Below, piece after piece: positions 20,103 through 29,954 of a stretch of DNA of 64,000 bases. The stretch's first letter is position 1; every line of letters begins with the position of its first letter. The notes beneath the pieces were generated by a model that saw nothing but the letters and a program-made list of their open reading frames with translations, was not told where the DNA came from and did no database searches. The position numbers were made by a program, and so were the translations under genes. The DNA comes from Candidatus Binatia bacterium (GTDB lineage: Bacteria > Desulfobacterota > Binatia > HRBIN30): NCBI GenBank assembly GCA_937925685.1, contig CALAMI010000012.1, positions 62,001 to 126,000 of the forward strand. The letters are read 5' to 3'.

Positions 20103-20699
20103 TCAACCCGTGCTGCGCGGGTTGAATCGGTTCATCGCCACCTCCACGCCCTCCTTCACGATGGTTTCGACGGCATCCGCGGCAGTTTCGATGGCCTCCG
20201 CCATCACTGTCCACTCGCGTTTGGTGAAAGGGCTCAAGACAAAGTCAACGATTTCGCCCTTTCCTGAGGGTTGGCCAATCCCAACTCGAACCCTGGGCAC
20301 GTTCTGGCTACCAACGGCGGCAAGGATTGAGCGAAGCCCTTTGTGACCTCCATCCGATCCTCGCTTTCTCACCCGCACCCTACCGAGGGGCAAAGCAACG
20401 TCGTCGAGTACAACCAGAAGCTTCTCCGGAGCCAGGAGCCAGTGCCTCAGGGCTTCCGCGGCGGCCAGGCCAGCCTCGTTCATATACGTGCGAGGCTTGG
20501 CCAGGAGCACGTCGCTGCCGCAGAGGATTCCCCTGCCGTAAAGTAACGTGGGCAGCCGGCTCGTCAGAGCGATCCGATGGCGGCGTACCAAGGTGTCGAC
20601 CACGGCGTAACCGACATTGTGGCGCGTGCCTTCGTACTCCTCGCCAGGGTTTCCCAATCCCAGGATCAACCACGCGGGCGTTCCCATGCTCCGACTCAC
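20103..20699 (-). CDS. pth: Peptidyl-tRNA hydrolase
   Basis: The 198-residue enzyme releases peptides from prematurely dropped peptidyl-tRNA. Family motifs are present: LGLGNPGEEYEGTRHNVGY (about residues 13-31, with the catalytic His), KPRTYMNEAG with the substrate-binding Asn, the catalytic Asp in VLDDVALPLGRVRVR, and GSDGGHKGLRSI. The GTG at 20699 or the ATG at 20687 could be the start; a GGGAGG site lies upstream of both. It precedes pyrR by 165 bases and may be co-transcribed into the pyr leader. Confidence 0.95.
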   Translation of the reverse strand: MSRSMGTPAWLILGLGNPGEEYEGTRHNVGYAVVDTLVRRHRIALTSRLPTLLYGRGILCGSDVLLAKPRTYMNEAGLAAAEALRHWLLAPEKLLVVLDDVALPLGRVRVRKRGSDGGHKGLRSILAAVGSQNVPRVRVGIGQPSGKGEIVDFVLSPFTKREWTVMAEAIETAADAVETIVKEGVEVAMNRFNPRSTG

Positions 20700-20802
20700 C
20701 GCCTCCCCTAAGCGACAACTTTTTTCCGCCTCATTGAATATCTTTTAGCGCACCGCGTCGAGTTCGCTGCAGCGTAAGCGGATCCCCCCTCCGCAAGCTG
20801 CT

Positions 20803-20883
20803 GAGCTGGCGGGCCCTCCCCCGCCCGCCAGCTCCCCCTCCCCTCCTCGTGAATCCCGGGGCCGTCCCCCCAGCGGCCCCGGG
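20803..20883. repeat. Two adjacent strong GC-rich hairpins
   Basis: GAGCTGGCGGGC (20803-20814) pairs perfectly with 20823-20834, and CCCGGGGCCG (20855-20864) pairs with CGGCCCCGGG (20874-20883). They lie just after the stop of the minus-strand gene ending at 20900 and before pth. No T-runs follow. They may act as transcript-end stabilisers or as REP-like elements. Confidence 0.65.
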
Positions 20884-20899
20884 CCCTCCCTGCCTCGCT

Positions 20900-21592
20900 T
20901 CAGTCATCCTCGGTCACTTCCGGACCCAACGGGGTGCCTGCGCAGGGCACCAGCCAAGACACGACCCACCGCACTTGCAGTTCCTCGAGCCGCGCCTGCC
21001 ACGCCTGTAAGGCCGAATAGCTCGCTCTCTCCTCCCAAAACCGGCACAAGGTGCCAAAATCCTTTGCGCTCCACAGAGCAAGCGCTTCACCGCTGCGCAT
21101 CGGGGCGGCGTAGGCGCCGATCAGGGTGAGCTGTGAGGCGTTCATCGACGGCAGCAATGACGACTCAAACTCTTCGAAAAATCCTCGTAGCCGCGACGGA
21201 GGCATTCGGTAAATCTGTTGCTCGGTCACCCAACCTCTGACCCCGGAGGACAGGAGTCGCGCTCGGTCGGGGCAAAAAGAGGTAGGTTCTAAAATCCGGT
21301 CTAACCCGCCGCTGCGATAGCGCAGCATGGCCGTCCACCAAGTGCCCAAGTGCGAATCACGCAGCCGAGGGTGAAACTGTCCTTCCAACGACCGAGACCA
21401 GTGGTTCCAGTCATCCATCTCCCACAGGTTGACCACCCGAGGCCAGCGGTGTGTACTGCCGATGACCCGCCACGTTCCCACAAGACGAGACACACCTTTC
21501 GCCTCGGAGTGGCGCGCTCGCTCCAGAACCGCCTCCATGTAAGGCATGGCGCCGTCGCCGCGAATATCGACCGTCTCGTGCAGGTAAATCAT
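20900..21592 (-). CDS. NIPSNAP-like / dimeric alpha-beta barrel protein
   Basis: The 230-residue product begins MIYLHETVDIRGDGAMPYMEAV and continues with repeated strand-helix patterns and a VNLWEMDDWNHWSRSLE segment, the signature look of NIPSNAP and related dimeric alpha-beta barrel proteins. A second similar half starts around residue 108 (TSFCPDRARLL..., then IYRMPPSRLRGFFEEFE), so it appears to be a tandem of two such domains. No signal peptide or catalytic motif is visible. Members of this fold are of varied or unknown function. The ribosome-binding site is weak, so a start upstream at 21658 cannot be excluded. Its 5' end diverges from the clpP-like gene. Confidence 0.6.
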   Translation of the reverse strand: MIYLHETVDIRGDGAMPYMEAVLERARHSEAKGVSRLVGTWRVIGSTHRWPRVVNLWEMDDWNHWSRSLEGQFHPRLRDSHLGTWWTAMLRYRSGGLDRILEPTSFCPDRARLLSSGVRGWVTEQQIYRMPPSRLRGFFEEFESSLLPSMNASQLTLIGAYAAPMRSGEALALWSAKDFGTLCRFWEERASYSALQAWQARLEELQVRWVVSWLVPCAGTPLGPEVTEDD

Positions 21593-21694
21593 CTTGGCAA
21601 CTTGCCTAGGGGAACCACAGTTCGATGCCCTGAACAAGCCTTTGCCCCAAAACGGCACGAGCGAGCGGTTGCCCCCAAGGGAGCACTACTCTAC

Positions 21695-22327
21695 ATGCCG
21701 TCTATGGATCGCGAAAACTTTGCTGGTACCGAGCTCGGTACCGCCCATGGAGCACTACCTGCGGAAGCTCGCGGCCTTGCCAGAGCGGTCAGTCAAAAGT
21801 TGTTCGAGACGCGCACGATCATCATTTGCGGCGAGATCACCATGCCACTAGCTCATGCCGTAACCGCTCAAGCGCTCGCTCTTGCCGCGGCTTCGGAGGA
21901 AGAAATCACGGTGATCGTGCACTCGCCCGGCGGACACGTCGAATCCGCAGACACGATTTTCGACATTCTCACTTTCATCCGGCCGCGGGTTCGCATGATC
22001 GGAACCGGCTGGGTTGCCAGCGCTGGGGCGCACATCTTTCTCGCGGCTGACAAGCCCGATCGCTATTGCCTTCCCAACACACGTTTCCTGTTGCACCAAC
22101 CAGCGGGTACTGCCGGTGGCCGCGCCACTGACTTGGAAATCGAGGCCCAGGAAATTCTGAAAATGCGTGCCCGGTTGAGTCGCATCATTGCAGAAAAAAC
22201 GGGCCAACCTCTCAAGCGAGTCGAGCGCGACACCGAACGGAACTTTTGGATGAGCGCAGAAGAGGCCTTGGAATACGGGCTGGTGAGCAAAATCATCCGC
22301 TCCATCGACGAACTCGGCAAGAAATAA
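21695..22327 (+). CDS. ClpP-like serine protease subunit with Asp-to-Asn change in the triad
   Basis: The 210-residue protein aligns along its length with ClpP, the barrel-forming peptidase that works with ClpX or ClpA. Ser109 in GWVASAGA and His134 in FLLHQPAG match the nucleophile and base, and their spacing (25 residues) equals that of E. coli ClpP. The Asp expected 49 residues after the His is Asn183, in DTERNFWMSAEEA; Asp179 is close by. It could be a ClpP paralog with reduced activity, a ClpR-like structural subunit, or an active variant using another residue. The frame stays open further upstream, but an AAGGGA site 12 bases before this ATG and family length support the start. A CPBP protease gene follows after 10 bases. 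Confidence 0.85.
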   Translation: MPSMDRENFAGTELGTAHGALPAEARGLARAVSQKLFETRTIIICGEITMPLAHAVTAQALALAAASEEEITVIVHSPGGHVESADTIFDILTFIRPRVRMIGTGWVASAGAHIFLAADKPDRYCLPNTRFLLHQPAGTAGGRATDLEIEAQEILKMRARLSRIIAEKTGQPLKRVERDTERNFWMSAEEALEYGLVSKIIRSIDELGKK

Positions 22328-22337
22328 CCCGCACTTT

Positions 22338-23123
22338 ATGCCCCCCGGGTACGCTGCTGTCCTCCTCAGTTTGGTGTTCGCCGGCCTGCTCTGGAGTCTA
22401 GGCATCGCCCCCTATAGATCCGAATTTTCCACGCCACTGCGCCGTCTGGCAGCGTTTGTTTTGTGGGTGAGCGTCCTCGCCTTCGTGGTCTTTTTGCCGG
22501 TAACTTCCGTGCGCGCAGCCGCTTCGCCCCAGTTCGACCAAGAGGCCTTCGCCGTTCTTTTTCTGGGACATGCCGTTCTTTGCCTGTTCCTGATCCTCTG
22601 GTGGTGGCTGCGCAGTGACATCAGCCTGAGTGAATTCTTGTATTTTCGGTGGAATCCTGCGCTGTTGACCAGCCGGTTCCTACTCGGTCTGGTTGCTGGC
22701 CTGGCAGGTTGGGCGATCACCCTGGCCACAACAGCCACGGTCGCCAGCTTGTGGTTTAACGTCACCCACTCTTTGCCGGAAGTGGCCTTGCCGGAGGTCG
22801 TCCTTTGGGTCACGGAGCTTTCCGCAGCGCAGAAAACCGCGCTCGTTCTCGTAGCCATGAGCGTCGAGGAAGCCTTTTTTCGTGCCTTTCTGCAGCCGCG
22901 GCTTGGGCTGTTGCTTTCCAGTGTTTGCTTTGCCCTAAGCCATCTTTCTTATGGTCTGCCGCTCCTCGTGGTCGGAGTCTTCGTGATCTCGCTGTTTCTA
23001 GGATGGTTATTCCGACGCACCAAGCACCTCCTCCCTAGCATGATCGCCCATGGCACCTTTGACGCTGTGCAGCTTTTCCTGGTGTTACCCTGGGCGGCCA
23101 AACAGGCGGCGTATTTCTCCTGA
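22338..23123 (+). CDS. CPBP family intramembrane glutamic protease
   Basis: This 261-residue membrane protein has about seven hydrophobic segments. The three CPBP (Abi/Rce1-like) motifs are present: E177-E178-AFF-R182, His202 in FALSHLSYG and H238-GTF-D242. The two Glu and two His form the predicted active site inside the membrane. Relatives process prenylated proteins in eukaryotes and serve bacteriocin immunity or envelope signalling in bacteria; the substrate here is unknown. It follows the ClpP-like gene closely and is probably co-transcribed with it. Confidence 0.85.
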   Translation: MPPGYAAVLLSLVFAGLLWSLGIAPYRSEFSTPLRRLAAFVLWVSVLAFVVFLPVTSVRAAASPQFDQEAFAVLFLGHAVLCLFLILWWWLRSDISLSEFLYFRWNPALLTSRFLLGLVAGLAGWAITLATTATVASLWFNVTHSLPEVALPEVVLWVTELSAAQKTALVLVAMSVEEAFFRAFLQPRLGLLLSSVCFALSHLSYGLPLLVVGVFVISLFLGWLFRRTKHLLPSMIAHGTFDAVQLFLVLPWAAKQAAYFS

Positions 23124-23194
23124 CTCCAGGTGCACGCATCGCGGGCAACTCCTACCCTACGCACAACCGCCATTCTGGGGTAAGAGCCTAACTC

Positions 23195-26100
23195 ATGACT
23201 GCAAACACGAAAACAACTGCCACGCTTGACGGGAACGAAGCCGTAGCTCGGGTAGCTTACAAGCTAAGCGAGGTAATCGCCATTTACCCGATTACACCCA
23301 GCTCTCCCATGGCAGAGTGGGCAGACGAGTGGGCAACAGGAGGGCAAAAGAACCTTTGGGGTACGGTTCCACGCGTGATCGAAATGCAGTCCGAGGCCGG
23401 TGCCATTGCTGCCCTCCACGGAGCCATCCAAGCTGGCGCCTTGGCGACAAGTTTCACCGCATCTCAAGGCTTGCTGCTCATGATTCCCGAGATGTTCAAG
23501 ATCGCTGGTGAACTTACGCCTTTTTGCCTCCACGTCGCTGCGCGAACCGTAGCAACGCACGCCCTGTCGATCTTCGGCGATCACTCGGATGTCATGGCCT
23601 GCCGCTCGACCGGTTTTGCCTTCCTGTGCAGCGCGTCCGTGCAAGAGGCCCATGATCTAGCATGCATCGCCCATGTGGCGACCCTGGAAGGTCGCGTTCC
23701 CTTCGTGCACTTTTTCGATGGTTTTCGTACCTCGCATGAGGTTGCCAAGATCGTTGCGCTGAACGACCACGATCTGCGCAGCCTCGTACCAGAGGCTGCT
23801 GTTGCGCACCACCGCTCTCGTGCCCTCACTCCAGACCAACCAAAACTGCGCGGCTCATCGCAAAACCCGGACACTTATTTTCAGGCCCGCGAGGCCGTCA
23901 ATCCCTTTTATGAAGCCCTGCCCGGAGTCGTGCAGGAAACCATGAATCGCTTCGCGATGCAAACCGGGCGCCAGTATCGTTTATTCGACTACTTTGGGCA
24001 TCCACAAGCCGAGCGGTTAATCATTGCCATGGGCTCAGCCTGCGAGACGATCGCCGAGGTGGTAGAGGAACTGGCCAATCGCGGCGAACCGGTGGGGCTT
24101 GTGCGGGTGAGGCTATTCCGCCCATTTTCTGCTCGAGCGTTCCTCAAAACCCTACCGGACACGGTGCGTGCAATCGCAGTGCTCGACCGTACCAAAGAGC
24201 CCGGAGCGAGCGGTGAACCCTTGTACCAAGAGGTCGTCACCGCCCTTGTGGATCAGTGGGCAGAAGAGTTTCGCGAGAAGCCGCTCCCGCGCCTCAGCAG
24301 CGGGCGTTATGGGCTAGCGTCGAAGGAGTTTACTCCAGCCATGGTAAAGGCAATTTACCGGGAGCTCGACGATCGGCGCGCACGCAGGCGCTTCACCGTT
24401 GGAATCGTTGACGACGTCACCCGTCTCTCGCTCCCCGTCGCTAACGAGCCCGAGTTCGAAGCGAGCGAGGTTTGGCGCGGCGTGTTCTACGGCTTAGCCT
24501 CAGATGGTACCGTCGGGGCGAACAAAAACTCGGTCAAAATCATTGGGGAGCACACGCCTCTTTGGGTGCAGGCCTACTTCGTGTACGACTCCAAGAAGGC
24601 AGGGTCACTCACCGTCTCCCATTTGCGCTTCGCAAGGCGGCCAATCCGCTCTGCTTATCTGATCAAGCAGGCAAACTTCGTGGCCTGTCACCGCCTCTCC
24701 CTGCTAGAGAGGCAGAACCTTCTAGAGGTTGCAGCCCCGCGCGCTACAGTGCTGTTCAACGCCCCGTTCGCCCCAGAGCAACTTTGGGAGCAACTGCCAC
24801 TGGAAGTCCAGCAAACAGCCGTCGAACGGCAACTCCAGCTGTTCACGATCAACGCACAAGCGCTTGCCGACCGCTTTGGCTTAGGGGGGCGGATCAACAC
24901 GATCATGCAAACGTGCTTTTTCCAGTTGGCCAACATCCTCCCGTTAGAAGAGGCACTCGGCGCCATCAAGGAAACCATTTGGGCCACTTATGGCCGCTTC
25001 GGTAAAACCATTGCCAAGCGCAACCTCGACGCTGTGGATGCCGCACTGGAGCACCTCCACCCCGTACCTCTTGGCGAGGTGAACGCCCGTCGCCACTGCC
25101 AAATCCCTGAGGTGCAAGACCCCCGGCCTTTTGTCCGCAGCGTGACCGCTGCCCTCATTGCCGGCCGAGGGGACGAACTGCCGGTGAGTGCGTTTCCTGT
25201 CGATGGTACGTGGCCAACGGGAACAGCGAAGTGGGAAAAGCGCAACATTGCCCTAGAGATTCCCGCCTGGGACCCGCAAGTATGTATTCAATGCAACAAA
25301 TGTGCTCTCGTCTGTCCGCATGCTGCCATCCGCACCAAGGTTTACCCGAAAGACCTGCTCGTCTCCGCGCCACCCTCGTTTCTTTCCATCGCTTACAAGG
25401 GCCATGAATTTCCGGAGCACCTCTACACGGTACAGGTTGCTCCTGAGGACTGTACGGGTTGCCGACTATGCTACAACATTTGTCCCGCCAAGGATCGCAC
25501 CAACCCGCGCCATAAGGCACTCGAAATGGTGCCCCAGGCACCCCGTCGGGACGAAGAACGGCGCAACTACGAGTTTTTTTTAAAGCTACCGGAACCTGAC
25601 CGGACAGCATTGCACCTCGACGTCAAAACATCCCAGTTTTTAGACCCCCTCTTCGAGTACTCCGGTGCATGTGCTGGGTGTGGAGAAACCCCCTACATCA
25701 AACTGCTGACGCAGCTTTTCGGCGATCGCTTACTGATTGCCAATGCAACCGGTTGCTCTTCGATTTACGGGGGCAACCTTCCCACTACACCTTACACCGT
25801 CAACGCTGAGGGGAGAGGGCCAGCTTGGTCCAATTCTCTGTTCGAGGATAATGCGGAGTTCGCGCTCGGAATGCGCCTTGCCCTCGACCAACTGGAGGCC
25901 TACGCGCGGGACTTGTTGCAACGGCTAACCCCCGAAATTGGTCAAGAACTCACCGACGCCCTCCTCATGGCCGAGCAGAACTCCGAAGCGGCAGTCGTGG
26001 CCCAGCGGTATCGAGTAGCGGAGTTACGAAAACGCCTCGCACGCATGGCTTCCCCGCTAGCGAAAACGTTAAGCGAACTTGCGGATTACCTGGTGAAAAA

Positions 26101-26785
26101 AACCGTGTGGGCCGTTGGTGGAGATGGCTGGGCTTACGATATCGGGTTCGGTGGCTTAGACCACGTGCTGGCATCGGGGGCAAACGTCAACATCCTGGTT
26201 CTCGACACGGAGGTCTATTCCAACACCGGGGGGCAGCAATCCAAAGCCACTCCCCTGGGGGCCGCAGCAAAGTTTGCTGCGGCCGGGAAAGCCACACCGA
26301 AAAAAGACCTTGGATTGATCGCTATGGCCTATGGCACCGTCTACGTCGCCCGCGTTGCCTTTGCTGCTCGAGACCAGCACACTTTGCGTTCGTTTTTGGA
26401 AGCTGAGTCCTACCCAGGGCCATCGTTGCTGATTGCGTACAGTCACTGTATCGCCCACGGGTACGATTTGGCATTTGCCGGCGACCAGCAACGCCGCGCC
26501 GTGCAATCGGGATATTGGCCGATTTACCGCTTCGATCCCCGCCGCATCCACAAAGGCGAAAACCCTTTGCAAATCGATATGCCGCAGCCGCGCACACCGT
26601 TGTCTGAATTTGCCTATCAAGAGACGCGCTTCCGGATGGTCGAACAGTTGGACCGTGCACGCTTCCACTCCCTGTTGCGGCAGGAGCAAGAAGAGATCTT
26701 GCGCCGATTTCGCCTCTACGAACAAATTGCTCGGCTTCGGCTGCCGCAAAGCGGAGGCGAAGAACCGCCAGGAGGACCGTCATGA
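23195..26785 (+). CDS. nifJ: Pyruvate:ferredoxin (flavodoxin) oxidoreductase
   Basis: The 1196-residue single-chain enzyme oxidises pyruvate to acetyl-CoA and CO2 and reduces ferredoxin or flavodoxin. Domains in order: pyrimidine-binding domain (from NEAVARVAYKLSEV), transketolase-C-like domain, gamma domain (about 420-640), a two-cluster ferredoxin domain with CIQCNKCALVCP (about 697) and CTGCRLCYNICP (about 753), the proximal-cluster motif CAGCGETPYIKL (about 826), and the TPP-binding GDGWAYDIG (about 976) with NTGGQQSKATP. All cluster cysteines appear intact. It signals ferredoxin-based, oxygen-sensitive carbon metabolism. Its stop overlaps the next start as ATGA. Confidence 0.97.
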   Translation: MTANTKTTATLDGNEAVARVAYKLSEVIAIYPITPSSPMAEWADEWATGGQKNLWGTVPRVIEMQSEAGAIAALHGAIQAGALATSFTASQGLLLMIPEMFKIAGELTPFCLHVAARTVATHALSIFGDHSDVMACRSTGFAFLCSASVQEAHDLACIAHVATLEGRVPFVHFFDGFRTSHEVAKIVALNDHDLRSLVPEAAVAHHRSRALTPDQPKLRGSSQNPDTYFQAREAVNPFYEALPGVVQETMNRFAMQTGRQYRLFDYFGHPQAERLIIAMGSACETIAEVVEELANRGEPVGLVRVRLFRPFSARAFLKTLPDTVRAIAVLDRTKEPGASGEPLYQEVVTALVDQWAEEFREKPLPRLSSGRYGLASKEFTPAMVKAIYRELDDRRARRRFTVGIVDDVTRLSLPVANEPEFEASEVWRGVFYGLASDGTVGANKNSVKIIGEHTPLWVQAYFVYDSKKAGSLTVSHLRFARRPIRSAYLIKQANFVACHRLSLLERQNLLEVAAPRATVLFNAPFAPEQLWEQLPLEVQQTAVERQLQLFTINAQALADRFGLGGRINTIMQTCFFQLANILPLEEALGAIKETIWATYGRFGKTIAKRNLDAVDAALEHLHPVPLGEVNARRHCQIPEVQDPRPFVRSVTAALIAGRGDELPVSAFPVDGTWPTGTAKWEKRNIALEIPAWDPQVCIQCNKCALVCPHAAIRTKVYPKDLLVSAPPSFLSIAYKGHEFPEHLYTVQVAPEDCTGCRLCYNICPAKDRTNPRHKALEMVPQAPRRDEERRNYEFFLKLPEPDRTALHLDVKTSQFLDPLFEYSGACAGCGETPYIKLLTQLFGDRLLIANATGCSSIYGGNLPTTPYTVNAEGRGPAWSNSLFEDNAEFALGMRLALDQLEAYARDLLQRLTPEIGQELTDALLMAEQNSEAAVVAQRYRVAELRKRLARMASPLAKTLSELADYLVKKTVWAVGGDGWAYDIGFGGLDHVLASGANVNILVLDTEVYSNTGGQQSKATPLGAAAKFAAAGKATPKKDLGLIAMAYGTVYVARVAFAARDQHTLRSFLEAESYPGPSLLIAYSHCIAHGYDLAFAGDQQRRAVQSGYWPIYRFDPRRIHKGENPLQIDMPQPRTPLSEFAYQETRFRMVEQLDRARFHSLLRQEQEEILRRFRLYEQIARLRLPQSGGEEPPGGPS

Positions 26786-27789
26786 TCGACATGAAGACAA
26801 ACTACCTCGGGCTTTCCTTGCCACACCCCGTGATGCCGGGGGCATCGCCGCTGATCGACGACCTCGACACGGTGCGTCGGCTCGAAGATGCCGGTGCTGC
26901 AGCCATCGTCATGCACTCCCTCTTCGAGGAGCAAATTGAACTCGAAGAGCAAAACACGATCTGGAGCATGGAAGTGCATGCCGAGGGCTATGCCGAGGCA
27001 TTGTCGTATTTTCCCCGGCCCGATAGGTTCGCTCTCGGTCCAGAGGAGTATTTGGAGCATATCCACCGGATCAAGGCAGCGGTCGCCGTGCCTGTCATTG
27101 CCTCACTGAACGGAGTTTCTGCTGCCGGATGGCTTCGGTACGGCGAACTGATCGAACAAGCAGGCGCGGACGCGCTCGAGCTGAACGTTTACTATGTCCC
27201 GACGAGCACCACAGAAACTTCGGAGCGGGTAGAACAGCGGGTCCTGGACATCCTGCAGGCCGTGCGTAGCCGCGTAAGGATCCCCGTTGCGGTCAAGCTC
27301 TCACCCTTTTATTCGGCACTTCCCGCATTGGGCGGCGAGCTAGCGCAGCGAGGAGCGAACGGGCTGGTTCTTTTTAACCGTTTTTACGAGCCAGATTTTG
27401 ACATCGAAGCGCTCGACGTCGTGCCTCGTTTGCGGTTTTCCGATCCTGATGAACTGCTCTTACGCCTTCACTGGCTTGCCATCCTCCGTCCGCAACTGCA
27501 CATCTCCCTAGCGGCAACAGGTGGTATTCACTCTGCCAAAGACGCCGTTAAAGCAATTTTAGCCGGTGCTGACGCAGTCCAAATCGTCTCCGCGCTCCTT
27601 CAGTTTGGCCCTGCTCACCTGAGCAAAATCTTGAGGGACCTTGCCCGGTGGGTGGAGGAACACGGCTATTCCTCTCTAGACGAAATGCGCGGTAGCTTGA
27701 GCTTGAACCGTTGCCCCAACCCGGAGGCGTTCGAACGGGGCAACTACATGCGGGTGCTGCAGGCGTGGACCGGGCAAAACTACAGGTAG
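26782..27789 (+). CDS. Dihydroorotate dehydrogenase-like flavoprotein linked to PFOR
   Basis: This 335-residue TIM-barrel protein resembles class 1 dihydroorotate dehydrogenases: NPVMPGASPL-like N-terminus, VIASLNG, ALELNVYY, VAVKLSPFYS, and the phosphate-binding end AATGGIHSAKDAVKAILAGADAVQIVSALL. The start overlaps the nifJ stop by four bases (ATGA), so the two are translationally coupled; the second ATG, at 26791, is an alternative. In many anaerobic and cyanobacterial genomes a gene of this type sits next to nifJ, and its substrate is not established there. It is not in the pyr operon, so use as the pyrimidine enzyme PyrD is possible but unproven. The usual active-site Cys or Ser was not located with certainty. 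Confidence 0.85.
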   Translation: MIDMKTNYLGLSLPHPVMPGASPLIDDLDTVRRLEDAGAAAIVMHSLFEEQIELEEQNTIWSMEVHAEGYAEALSYFPRPDRFALGPEEYLEHIHRIKAAVAVPVIASLNGVSAAGWLRYGELIEQAGADALELNVYYVPTSTTETSERVEQRVLDILQAVRSRVRIPVAVKLSPFYSALPALGGELAQRGANGLVLFNRFYEPDFDIEALDVVPRLRFSDPDELLLRLHWLAILRPQLHISLAATGGIHSAKDAVKAILAGADAVQIVSALLQFGPAHLSKILRDLARWVEEHGYSSLDEMRGSLSLNRCPNPEAFERGNYMRVLQAWTGQNYR

Positions 27790-27821
27790 CTCGGCCCTAC
27801 CCTGGCTGAGCTCGGGAGCCG

Positions 27822-29954
27822 CTACTTCTTCTCGTCCAAATCCGTAATGGCCTGCCACTGTGGTGGGGGGTCTCTCAGGAGCATCTGGCAGCGGGCCTGG
27901 AACAGTTGTGCAGTCCGGTCGCCTGCCAGGCCATCGGCCAGCAGAGCGAACTTCCGCGCAGCCAACTCGAATTCGCCGCGCCGATAGGCGGACAATGCTT
28001 CGGCAAACTCGCCCATGTTGCGAACCTTCTCGGGCTCTAAGGCCAGCGTCCCTTCGCCTAGAAGCTCGAACACGCGCACCGGTCGTTCCCGTCCTTTTAC
28101 CCGAACGGTATCGATTTCTCGCACCAGAAACCCCTGTGGCAGTTGCGTAGCAGTTGCCTCGGCCAAAAGGATGGTCGTTCCGTAAAATTTGTTGAGTCCC
28201 TCGAGTCGGGCAGCCAGGTTCACGTTGTCGCCCACAACGGTCAGGCTCAGGTGTTGCAACGAACCCATATTCCCGAACACCACGGGCCCCGAGTTGATGC
28301 CAATACGCGTTTCCAAACGCGGCCAACCCCTGATCTCCCACTCGTTGCACAGCTCTTTTAATCGCCGCTGCATCGCCAAGGCCGCGCGACACGCAGCCGC
28401 AGCATGGTCCGCTCGGGGCAAGGGTACACCCCAAACGGCCATGATGCCGTCACCGATGTACTTGTCGAGCATTCCGTTATGGGCAAAAACAACCTCCGTC
28501 ATCGCCCCGAGGTAGGAGTTGAGAAGTTCCACCAAAACTTCCGGCGGAAGCTGCTCAGAAAGTCTGGTGAAGTCCTTGATATCCGAGAACAAGATAGAGC
28601 AATCAATTTTTTCTCCTCCCAGTCGCAGCCGCTCCGGGTGTTCACTGACCAGTGCCGCTGCCGTTGGACTCAGGTACAGCTCAAGGGCACGCCGAACCTT
28701 GCGTCGCTCCCGCTCCTCGGAAAGATAACGGCCGACGCTTCCGGCAATCAGTGCAAACGTGGCGACAAGCGTCGGCGAAACCACAGGCAATATTACGCCC
28801 CAGTGTTGCAATGCCCCTTGGCAAACCCCGCCGTAGGCTGCCACCAGCAGCCCTGGACCTAGCACCCCCGTCACCCCACGTGCGTGGGCGACCAGCAAGC
28901 TTATGCCCCAAGAGAGCACCAGCCAAGCAGCCGCCTCAATGGCCGTTGCCCACCAGGGTTCGACCAGGAAACGACCGCGCAAGACGTTGTCAACCACATT
29001 GGCGTGAATCTCCACGCCAGGGAAAGCGGGATCGAAGGCAGTCACACGCTGGTCGTACAGGCCAACAGCCGTGACCCCGAGCAAAACAATTTTACCACGC
29101 AACTGCTCAGCCGGGGCCCGATCCCGCAACAGGTCGACTGCGGACACGTAGGGAAAGGTGCGGGCCGGCCCGCGAAAATCCACCCGCAAACTGCCGCTGC
29201 GATCCACAGGGATGCGCTGACTTCCTAGCGCCACTTCTGCCACTCCCCGATCCTCGACAACAATGTGCGCCGCAACACCACGAGCCTGTCGAAGCACAGC
29301 TAGAGAGAGTGGAGGAACCAATTGCTCTCCGTAGCGGATGACCAGAGGTACGCGCCGAATCGTTCCGTCCGGGTCCGGAATAAGGTTGAAATAGCCAAGG
29401 TCCCTGGCTCTGCGGGAAAACTCCGGGAGGTTTGGCGTCAGTAGCGCCGATTCGCCATCCCGAGGCAGAATCCACCGAAGCCCTTGTAAACTTCGTAGGC
29501 GTACCACGTCGTAAGGGCGCACCAGTCCATCGGCGACCATCGCTCCCTGCTTTCCGAACTGGAAAAAATACCCCAGCACGTAAATCGGTGCCTCTGCCAG
29601 AGTCTCGGCAAGCATGTGATCTTCCAAGAGTCCGCTCGGCGACTGCGATGGTTCGGAATAAACCATGTCGACCCCGACCACTTCCGGCTGCGCTCGGGCA
29701 ATGCGCTGCAGGAGTACAGCCATGGTACTGCGCGGCCATGGCCAGCGGCCAATTTCTCGAATGCTGGTGTCGTCAATAGCGACAATGACGACCTCGGGAT
29801 GCGGCGCCAGCTGCTGGCGGCGCAACAGCAGGCGATAGTCAGTGGCACGTTCCTCGACCAGTGAGAGTTGCGAGCATCCGGCCACGCGCAACCCGGCGAC
29901 TACGGCGACGGCCGAAAAGCTAATCCAGGCGGCTCGCAAGCTTCTCCGCGCCAT
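27822..29954 (-). CDS. CHASE2-domain adenylate/guanylate cyclase
   Basis: The 710-residue membrane sensor has an N-terminal membrane segment (about residues 9-26), a large periplasmic CHASE2 sensor domain (about 36-330), three closely spaced transmembrane helices (about 335-410) and a class III nucleotide cyclase domain (about 452-635). Metal-binding Asp458 (FSDIKDF) and Asp502 (YIGDGIMAVWG) and the transition-state residues Asn579 and Arg583 (DNVNLAAR) are present, so it should be catalytically competent. Whether it makes cAMP or cGMP is not clear. A helical tail of about 70 residues follows. fumC is transcribed just ahead of it with a nine-base gap. Confidence 0.93.
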   Translation of the reverse strand: MARRSLRAAWISFSAVAVVAGLRVAGCSQLSLVEERATDYRLLLRRQQLAPHPEVVIVAIDDTSIREIGRWPWPRSTMAVLLQRIARAQPEVVGVDMVYSEPSQSPSGLLEDHMLAETLAEAPIYVLGYFFQFGKQGAMVADGLVRPYDVVRLRSLQGLRWILPRDGESALLTPNLPEFSRRARDLGYFNLIPDPDGTIRRVPLVIRYGEQLVPPLSLAVLRQARGVAAHIVVEDRGVAEVALGSQRIPVDRSGSLRVDFRGPARTFPYVSAVDLLRDRAPAEQLRGKIVLLGVTAVGLYDQRVTAFDPAFPGVEIHANVVDNVLRGRFLVEPWWATAIEAAAWLVLSWGISLLVAHARGVTGVLGPGLLVAAYGGVCQGALQHWGVILPVVSPTLVATFALIAGSVGRYLSEERERRKVRRALELYLSPTAAALVSEHPERLRLGGEKIDCSILFSDIKDFTRLSEQLPPEVLVELLNSYLGAMTEVVFAHNGMLDKYIGDGIMAVWGVPLPRADHAAAACRAALAMQRRLKELCNEWEIRGWPRLETRIGINSGPVVFGNMGSLQHLSLTVVGDNVNLAARLEGLNKFYGTTILLAEATATQLPQGFLVREIDTVRVKGRERPVRVFELLGEGTLALEPEKVRNMGEFAEALSAYRRGEFELAARKFALLADGLAGDRTAQLFQARCQMLLRDPPPQWQAITDLDEKK

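Follow-up and report, generated by a model that had tools for sequence, protein, structure and literature searches.

Which kind of ClpP is encoded by a gene whose product carries asparagine where the third catalytic residue should be aspartate, and is the intramembrane protease gene that follows it a partner or only a neighbour? Both questions are raised by one locus in the window, by which we mean the whole 64,000-nucleotide stretch of DNA analysed here. A first-pass annotation had described the locus as a ClpP-like subunit with Asn183 replacing the triad aspartate, paired with a CPBP protease, and had proposed that the two form a specialised proteolytic unit. The features discussed below are collected in Table 1.

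Table 1. Features of the clpP2-CPBP locus, in window positions.
Feature	Position	Strand	Description and basis
clpP2-like gene	21695..22327	+	210 aa, putative accessory ClpP subunit; profiles, predicted fold
Ser109 codon	22019..22021	+	nucleophile; alignment, direct reading
His134 codon	22094..22096	+	alignment, direct reading
Asn183 codon (AAC)	22241..22243	+	at canonical triad Asp position; alignment, direct reading
CPBP (Rce1-like) intramembrane protease gene	22338..23123	+	261 aa; EEAFFR, SH, HGTFD motifs

A ClpP subunit with a Ser-His-Asn triad

The clpP2-like protein belongs to the ClpP peptidase family, matching CLP_protease (PF00574) in Pfam at 199.6 bits against a cut-off of 20.2, and it also matches the NCBIfam model NF009205 (PRK12553, Clp proteolytic subunit) at 241.7 bits against a cut-off of 228. 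We took the ATG at 21695 as its start; as the open frame begins further upstream, the exact start is left unfixed. An AlphaFold2 model built from 10 sequences was poor (pLDDT 53.8), and we used one built from 65 sequences (pLDDT 87.3), which has the ClpP fold. The best Foldseek matches of this model come from Listeria (ClpP1/2) and Pseudomonas (ClpP1/ClpP2), the top five rows being 4ryf (two chains), 9ndj, 4jcr and 7m1l. All 50 matches listed are ClpPs, with VIA-align Z scores of 26.7 to 29.0. The Listeria and Pseudomonas rows (27.6 to 29.0) are nearly tied with the canonical ClpPs of B. subtilis (3ktg, 27.8) and T. thermophilus (27.5), and therefore the fold alone cannot choose between subfamilies. 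The fold identifies a ClpP; the sequence identifies which kind.

Aligned with the canonical ClpP of the same genome, the clpP2-like protein places Ser109, His134 and Asn183 at the same spacing, 25 and 49 residues, as Ser103, His128 and Asp177. It thus departs from the Ser-His-Asp triad of a housekeeping ClpP and has the natural triad Asn of an Asn-type accessory ClpP, and the first-pass description of the subunit, including its canonical Ser-His spacing, agrees with both the PF00574 profile and this alignment. The one residue that might have displaced Asn183, Asp179, is ruled out as a triad member because it aligns with the first, non-triad Asp of the canonical 'DTDRD'. Asn occupies the position in 9/9 orthologues from the order with at least 65% identity (the window protein, two others in the genus and six in other families), so its presence here is not due to chance. 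A triad Asp is found in the order relatives L043 and L044 (40-43% identity) and in the class-level relative L042 (55%).

A canonical Clp system elsewhere in the genome

The first-pass annotation had noted that no ClpX or ClpA gene adjoins clpP2, which holds for the nearby genes that we profiled from 20103 to 29954, and had suggested looking for the canonical clpP-clpX pair elsewhere. We found it in this genome, on contig C28, as a tig-clpP-clpX cluster (tig and clpX named from their translations) that encodes a Ser-His-Asp ClpP; the clpP2-like gene lies outside this housekeeping context. The product of a ClpA-like gene on contig C16 is 72% identical to a ClpA-like protein from a relative, and contigs C16, C7 and C15 carry genes that, going by their sequences, we take to be ClpA-, ClpB- and HslU-like. 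The segment 'VEQTGRGERAYDIYSRLL' at the N-terminus of the canonical ClpP, presumably its axial-loop region, has no counterpart in the alignment in either the clpP2-like protein or the other eight order orthologues.

Coexistence of two ClpPs extends beyond this genome. Among 58 genomes searched, our own included, 9/9 of those that carry an orthologue of at least 65% identity also contain another ClpP match, at 37-39%. In our genome this second match is the canonical Ser-His-Asp clpP, as expected beside an Asn-type accessory subunit; in the other eight it is presumed to be the same. Genomes of four other genera of the family, within the same 58, have ClpP matches of 35-40% only. As a separate observation, a third ClpP-like protein is encoded in our genome on contig C32 (L003, 1447-2070, minus strand; PF00574 at 69.8 bits), in which Ser and His are kept and Glu aligns with the third triad position.

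Asn-type ClpPs in other lineages

A survey of ClpP paralogues for Asn at this site had also been suggested, and the type proved common among the proteins most like ours. A genome scan confirmed at least 589 relatives, from which we kept the best 80 that were named, ranked by likeness to the window protein. Ser-His-Asn occurs in 56 of these and Ser-His-Asp in 24, and none of the best 80 of at least 589 lacks Ser or His; given that ranking, 56/80 is not a rate for accessory ClpPs as a whole. Within this set of 80, the titles of Asn-type records name Azospirillum, Phenylobacterium, Chloroflexi, Gemmatimonadetes, Enterococcus, Verrucomicrobia, Calditrichia, KSB1 and Deltaproteobacteria, so that the type, judged by record title, spans many phyla. 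The Ser-His-Asn triad is termed rare in the available part of PMC12900304, which names Listeria ClpP1 as an example; our survey suggests that it is frequent among the window protein's relatives. A search of the phylum found matches at E <= 1e-55 in 7/297 genomes (own included), five of them distant, a count made by score that includes any triad.

We asked how the two triads are distributed on a tree of 98 rows from which the triad column had been removed and to which Listeria ClpP1 had been added. This tree requires 4 changes between Asn and Asp, where shuffled labels require 27.8 on average, and Asn is therefore a clustered, retained state; a first, quick tree that kept the triad column had given 2. 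Listeria ClpP1 groups with Enterococcus, away from the window protein, and together with the 4 changes this means that a single clade of Asn-type ClpPs is not established.

The CPBP gene is a neighbour at the level of the genus

The gene that follows clpP2 was correctly recognised in the first-pass annotation as encoding a CPBP intramembrane protease. Its product matches the Rce1-like/CPBP family (PF02517) in Pfam at 58.7 bits against a cut-off of 22.4, and no named NCBIfam CPBP model matched over its cut-off. E-E-x-F-[FY]-R, then His, then H-G-x-F-D are present in 14/14 aligned CPBP sequences, and we read these Glu and His motifs as conserved motifs of the family. The clpP2 stop and the CPBP ATG are 10 bases apart in all genomes of the genus (3/3), the window's included, and from this gap we infer that the two genes are probably co-transcribed in the genus. 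A scan of 21450-23300 for promoters and terminators found neither, which carries no weight either way.

Presence of the pairing in relatives had been set beforehand as the test of the proposed unit. The pairing held in the three genus genomes and failed at the loci sampled beyond them. Using tblastn, we found no CPBP at 9/9 non-genus loci (L036-L044: six orthologues, L042, L043 and L044), although the flanks of L039 extend for just 1.7-1.9 kb. A motif scan of open frames within 6 kb covered 90 loci, 89 of them distinct since L045 duplicates L041, and matched six; we kept three, the window, L034 and L035. The matches at L036, L068 and L086 were dropped by eye as frames that were low in hydrophobicity or not CPBP-like. 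No credible CPBP was thus found at the loci of the best 80 of at least 589 named relatives, in a scan that looks for a pattern rather than a profile, so that a divergent CPBP could escape it anywhere, and that could miss one at the loci with less than 2 kb of 3' flank (L039, L055, L057, L069, L070, L072, L082, L091 and L096).

The distribution of CPBP genes in close genomes points the same way. Our genome alone has three CPBP matches in Pfam. A relative of the window's CPBP is found in 14/15 close genomes: in three it lies beside the Asn-type ClpP, in six apart from it (G007, G009 and G011-G014, on other contigs or, in G012, about 178 kb off), and in five the Asn-type ClpP is absent (G004-G006, G008 and G010). 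Within the genus, the window's ClpP is 90 and 91% identical to its counterparts, above the values for three neighbouring genes, and the CPBP is 56 and 72% identical. The downstream gene at 23195 (plus strand), which has pyruvate:ferredoxin oxidoreductase (POR) domains in Pfam, and the upstream gene on the opposite strand, which has a weak NIPSNAP match (23.3 bits against a cut-off of 22.3), are also neighbours in 3/3 genus genomes, so it is the whole block that is conserved in the genus and not the pair alone. On the tblastn search, the motif scan and the occurrence of CPBP in close genomes, we reject the CPBP as a conserved partner outside the genus; it is a genus-level neighbour of the Asn-type ClpP. 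Clustering the open frames of 88 loci revealed, in its 30 largest groups, no other neighbour conserved across lineages; neighbours are lineage-bound, with an enolase-like gene upstream at 7 loci and an amylase-like gene downstream at 17 (names read from sequence).

Three related genomes of the order have the CPBP relative convergent with a clpA-like gene, with 41-53 bases between the aligned ends (L162 in G011, L165 in G009 and L166 in G014), and in G012 (L164) it lies about 1.5 kb from one. This is a second CPBP-Clp adjacency, with another Clp gene, and may be coincidental.

Elsewhere in the window, an Rfam search found two tRNAs and a PyrR site, and nothing at the clpP2-CPBP locus. The PyrR binding site RNA (RF00515, 19951-20061, minus strand; 56.2 bits against a cut-off of 54) precedes a series of genes on its own strand that, going by their translations, are pyrR-, pyrB-, pyrC- and carA-like in turn. 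At 27822-29954 (minus strand), a CHASE2 sensor domain is fused to an adenylate/guanylate cyclase domain.

What the clpP2-like protein is likely to do

Our preferred reading, to which we give a probability of about 0.8, is that the clpP2-like protein, with its Asn-type triad, is an accessory subunit of ClpP rings, of the same kind as Listeria ClpP1 and Pseudomonas ClpP2. The protein has the ClpP profile, the predicted fold and Ser-His-Asn, it lacks the canonical N-terminal segment, and a canonical ClpP, ClpX and a ClpA-like protein are encoded elsewhere in the genome. By analogy with homologues that are about 50% identical, the subunit probably depends on the canonical ClpP for activity, the two together making up a mixed complex. 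Alone, it would be weakly active or heptameric; on the model of Listeria and Pseudomonas, its ring would become active by stacking on a canonical ClpP ring, where ClpX or ClpA would dock, and the outcome may be a mixed protease of altered activity. The CPBP product would be no part of this machine. The available text of PMC5361862 describes Listeria ClpP1 as mainly an inactive heptamer on its own, a state selected by the Asn, and as requiring ClpP2 for activity; with ClpX, it reports, proteolysis by the mixed complex is 10-fold higher. The same text also reports that the mixed complex is less active on peptides, which counts against the accessory reading, as do two C. difficile paralogues that, in the accessible part of PMC11423568, are active as homotetradecamers and not as a heterotetradecamer.

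Could the protein instead be an independent, homo-oligomeric protease in which Asn fills the catalytic role of Asp? Neither Ser nor His has been lost, the Asn-type proteins cluster on the tree and come from many phyla among the best 80 of at least 589 relatives, and according to the part of PMC12900304 available to us the third triad residue is not what chiefly determines how active Pseudomonas plecoglossicida ClpP1 is, a result that also speaks against the accessory reading. We nevertheless consider independence unlikely, since the heptameric state of Listeria ClpP1 gives way to activity and a tetradecamer when its Asn is changed to Asp (PMC5361862, available text), no unfoldase gene adjoins clpP2 among the profiled neighbours, and the canonical N-terminal segment is missing. 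A purely structural role of the ClpR type, with no catalysis, or decay of the paralogue would suit the non-canonical triad and is extremely unlikely: Ser and His persist in all of the best 80 of at least 589 relatives and at the 11 loci L034-L044, identity within the genus exceeds that of three neighbouring genes, and the Asn-type subunit of Listeria cleaves within the mixed complex (PMC5361862, same text). A two-step unit, in which the CPBP would cut a membrane protein and a ClpP complex degrade the released part, draws on the intact CPBP motifs, the order and 10-base gap shared by the genus and the convergence with clpA-like genes in three order relatives. We regard it as very unlikely given the loci and genomes without the pairing, the lower conservation of the CPBP within the genus and the equal retention of the POR and NIPSNAP-like genes, and the specialised unit proposed at the outset is likewise unsupported beyond the genus. 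Highly improbable, too, is a translational coupling of the Asn-type ClpP to the CPBP in the genus, so that the activities that cut one substrate in the membrane and degrade it in the cytoplasm would be made together, the CPBP-clpA adjacency in the order being a recurring CPBP-Clp link. The locus itself reveals no new mechanism. With 56 Asn-type proteins in the best 80 of at least 589 named relatives, findings on Listeria ClpP1 may hold for more bacteria.

Comparison with known systems

The clpP2-like protein shares Ser, His and the 25/49 spacing with the canonical ClpP of its own genome, which differs in its Asp, its N-terminal segment and its adjacent clpX and is 37% identical. The product of the neighbouring CPBP gene resembles known CPBP/Rce1-like intramembrane proteases (PF02517) in both its profile match and its motifs. 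With P. aeruginosa ClpP2 (7m1l, 9ndj), the clpP2-like protein has 'SPGGHVES', 'VASAGA' and the fold in common, whereas that protein keeps the triad Asp; 7m1l is the next PDB sequence match (E 1.4e-53) after the Listeria chains, and a P. aeruginosa ClpP1/ClpP2 heterocomplex with ClpX is a solved structure, according to the title of 9ndj. The best PDB sequence matches are the ClpP1 chains of Listeria monocytogenes with the natural Asn (4jcq/4ryf, E 2.8e-62), and other near sequences are 6sfx (Ala for the catalytic Ser), 4jcr (the Asn-to-Asp form) and 9ndj (P. aeruginosa ClpP2, Asp). Listeria ClpP1 comes from another phylum, Bacillota, and is about 50% identical to the window protein, whose N-terminus is longer than and unrelated to that of ClpP1. 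Like the clpP2-like protein, Listeria ClpP1 (4jcq, 4ryf, 6sfx) has Ser-His-Asn and 'DTxRNFW', is missing the canonical N-terminal motif and is encoded in a genome that also encodes a canonical ClpP; the triad Asn is thus a known natural variant and not a new one.
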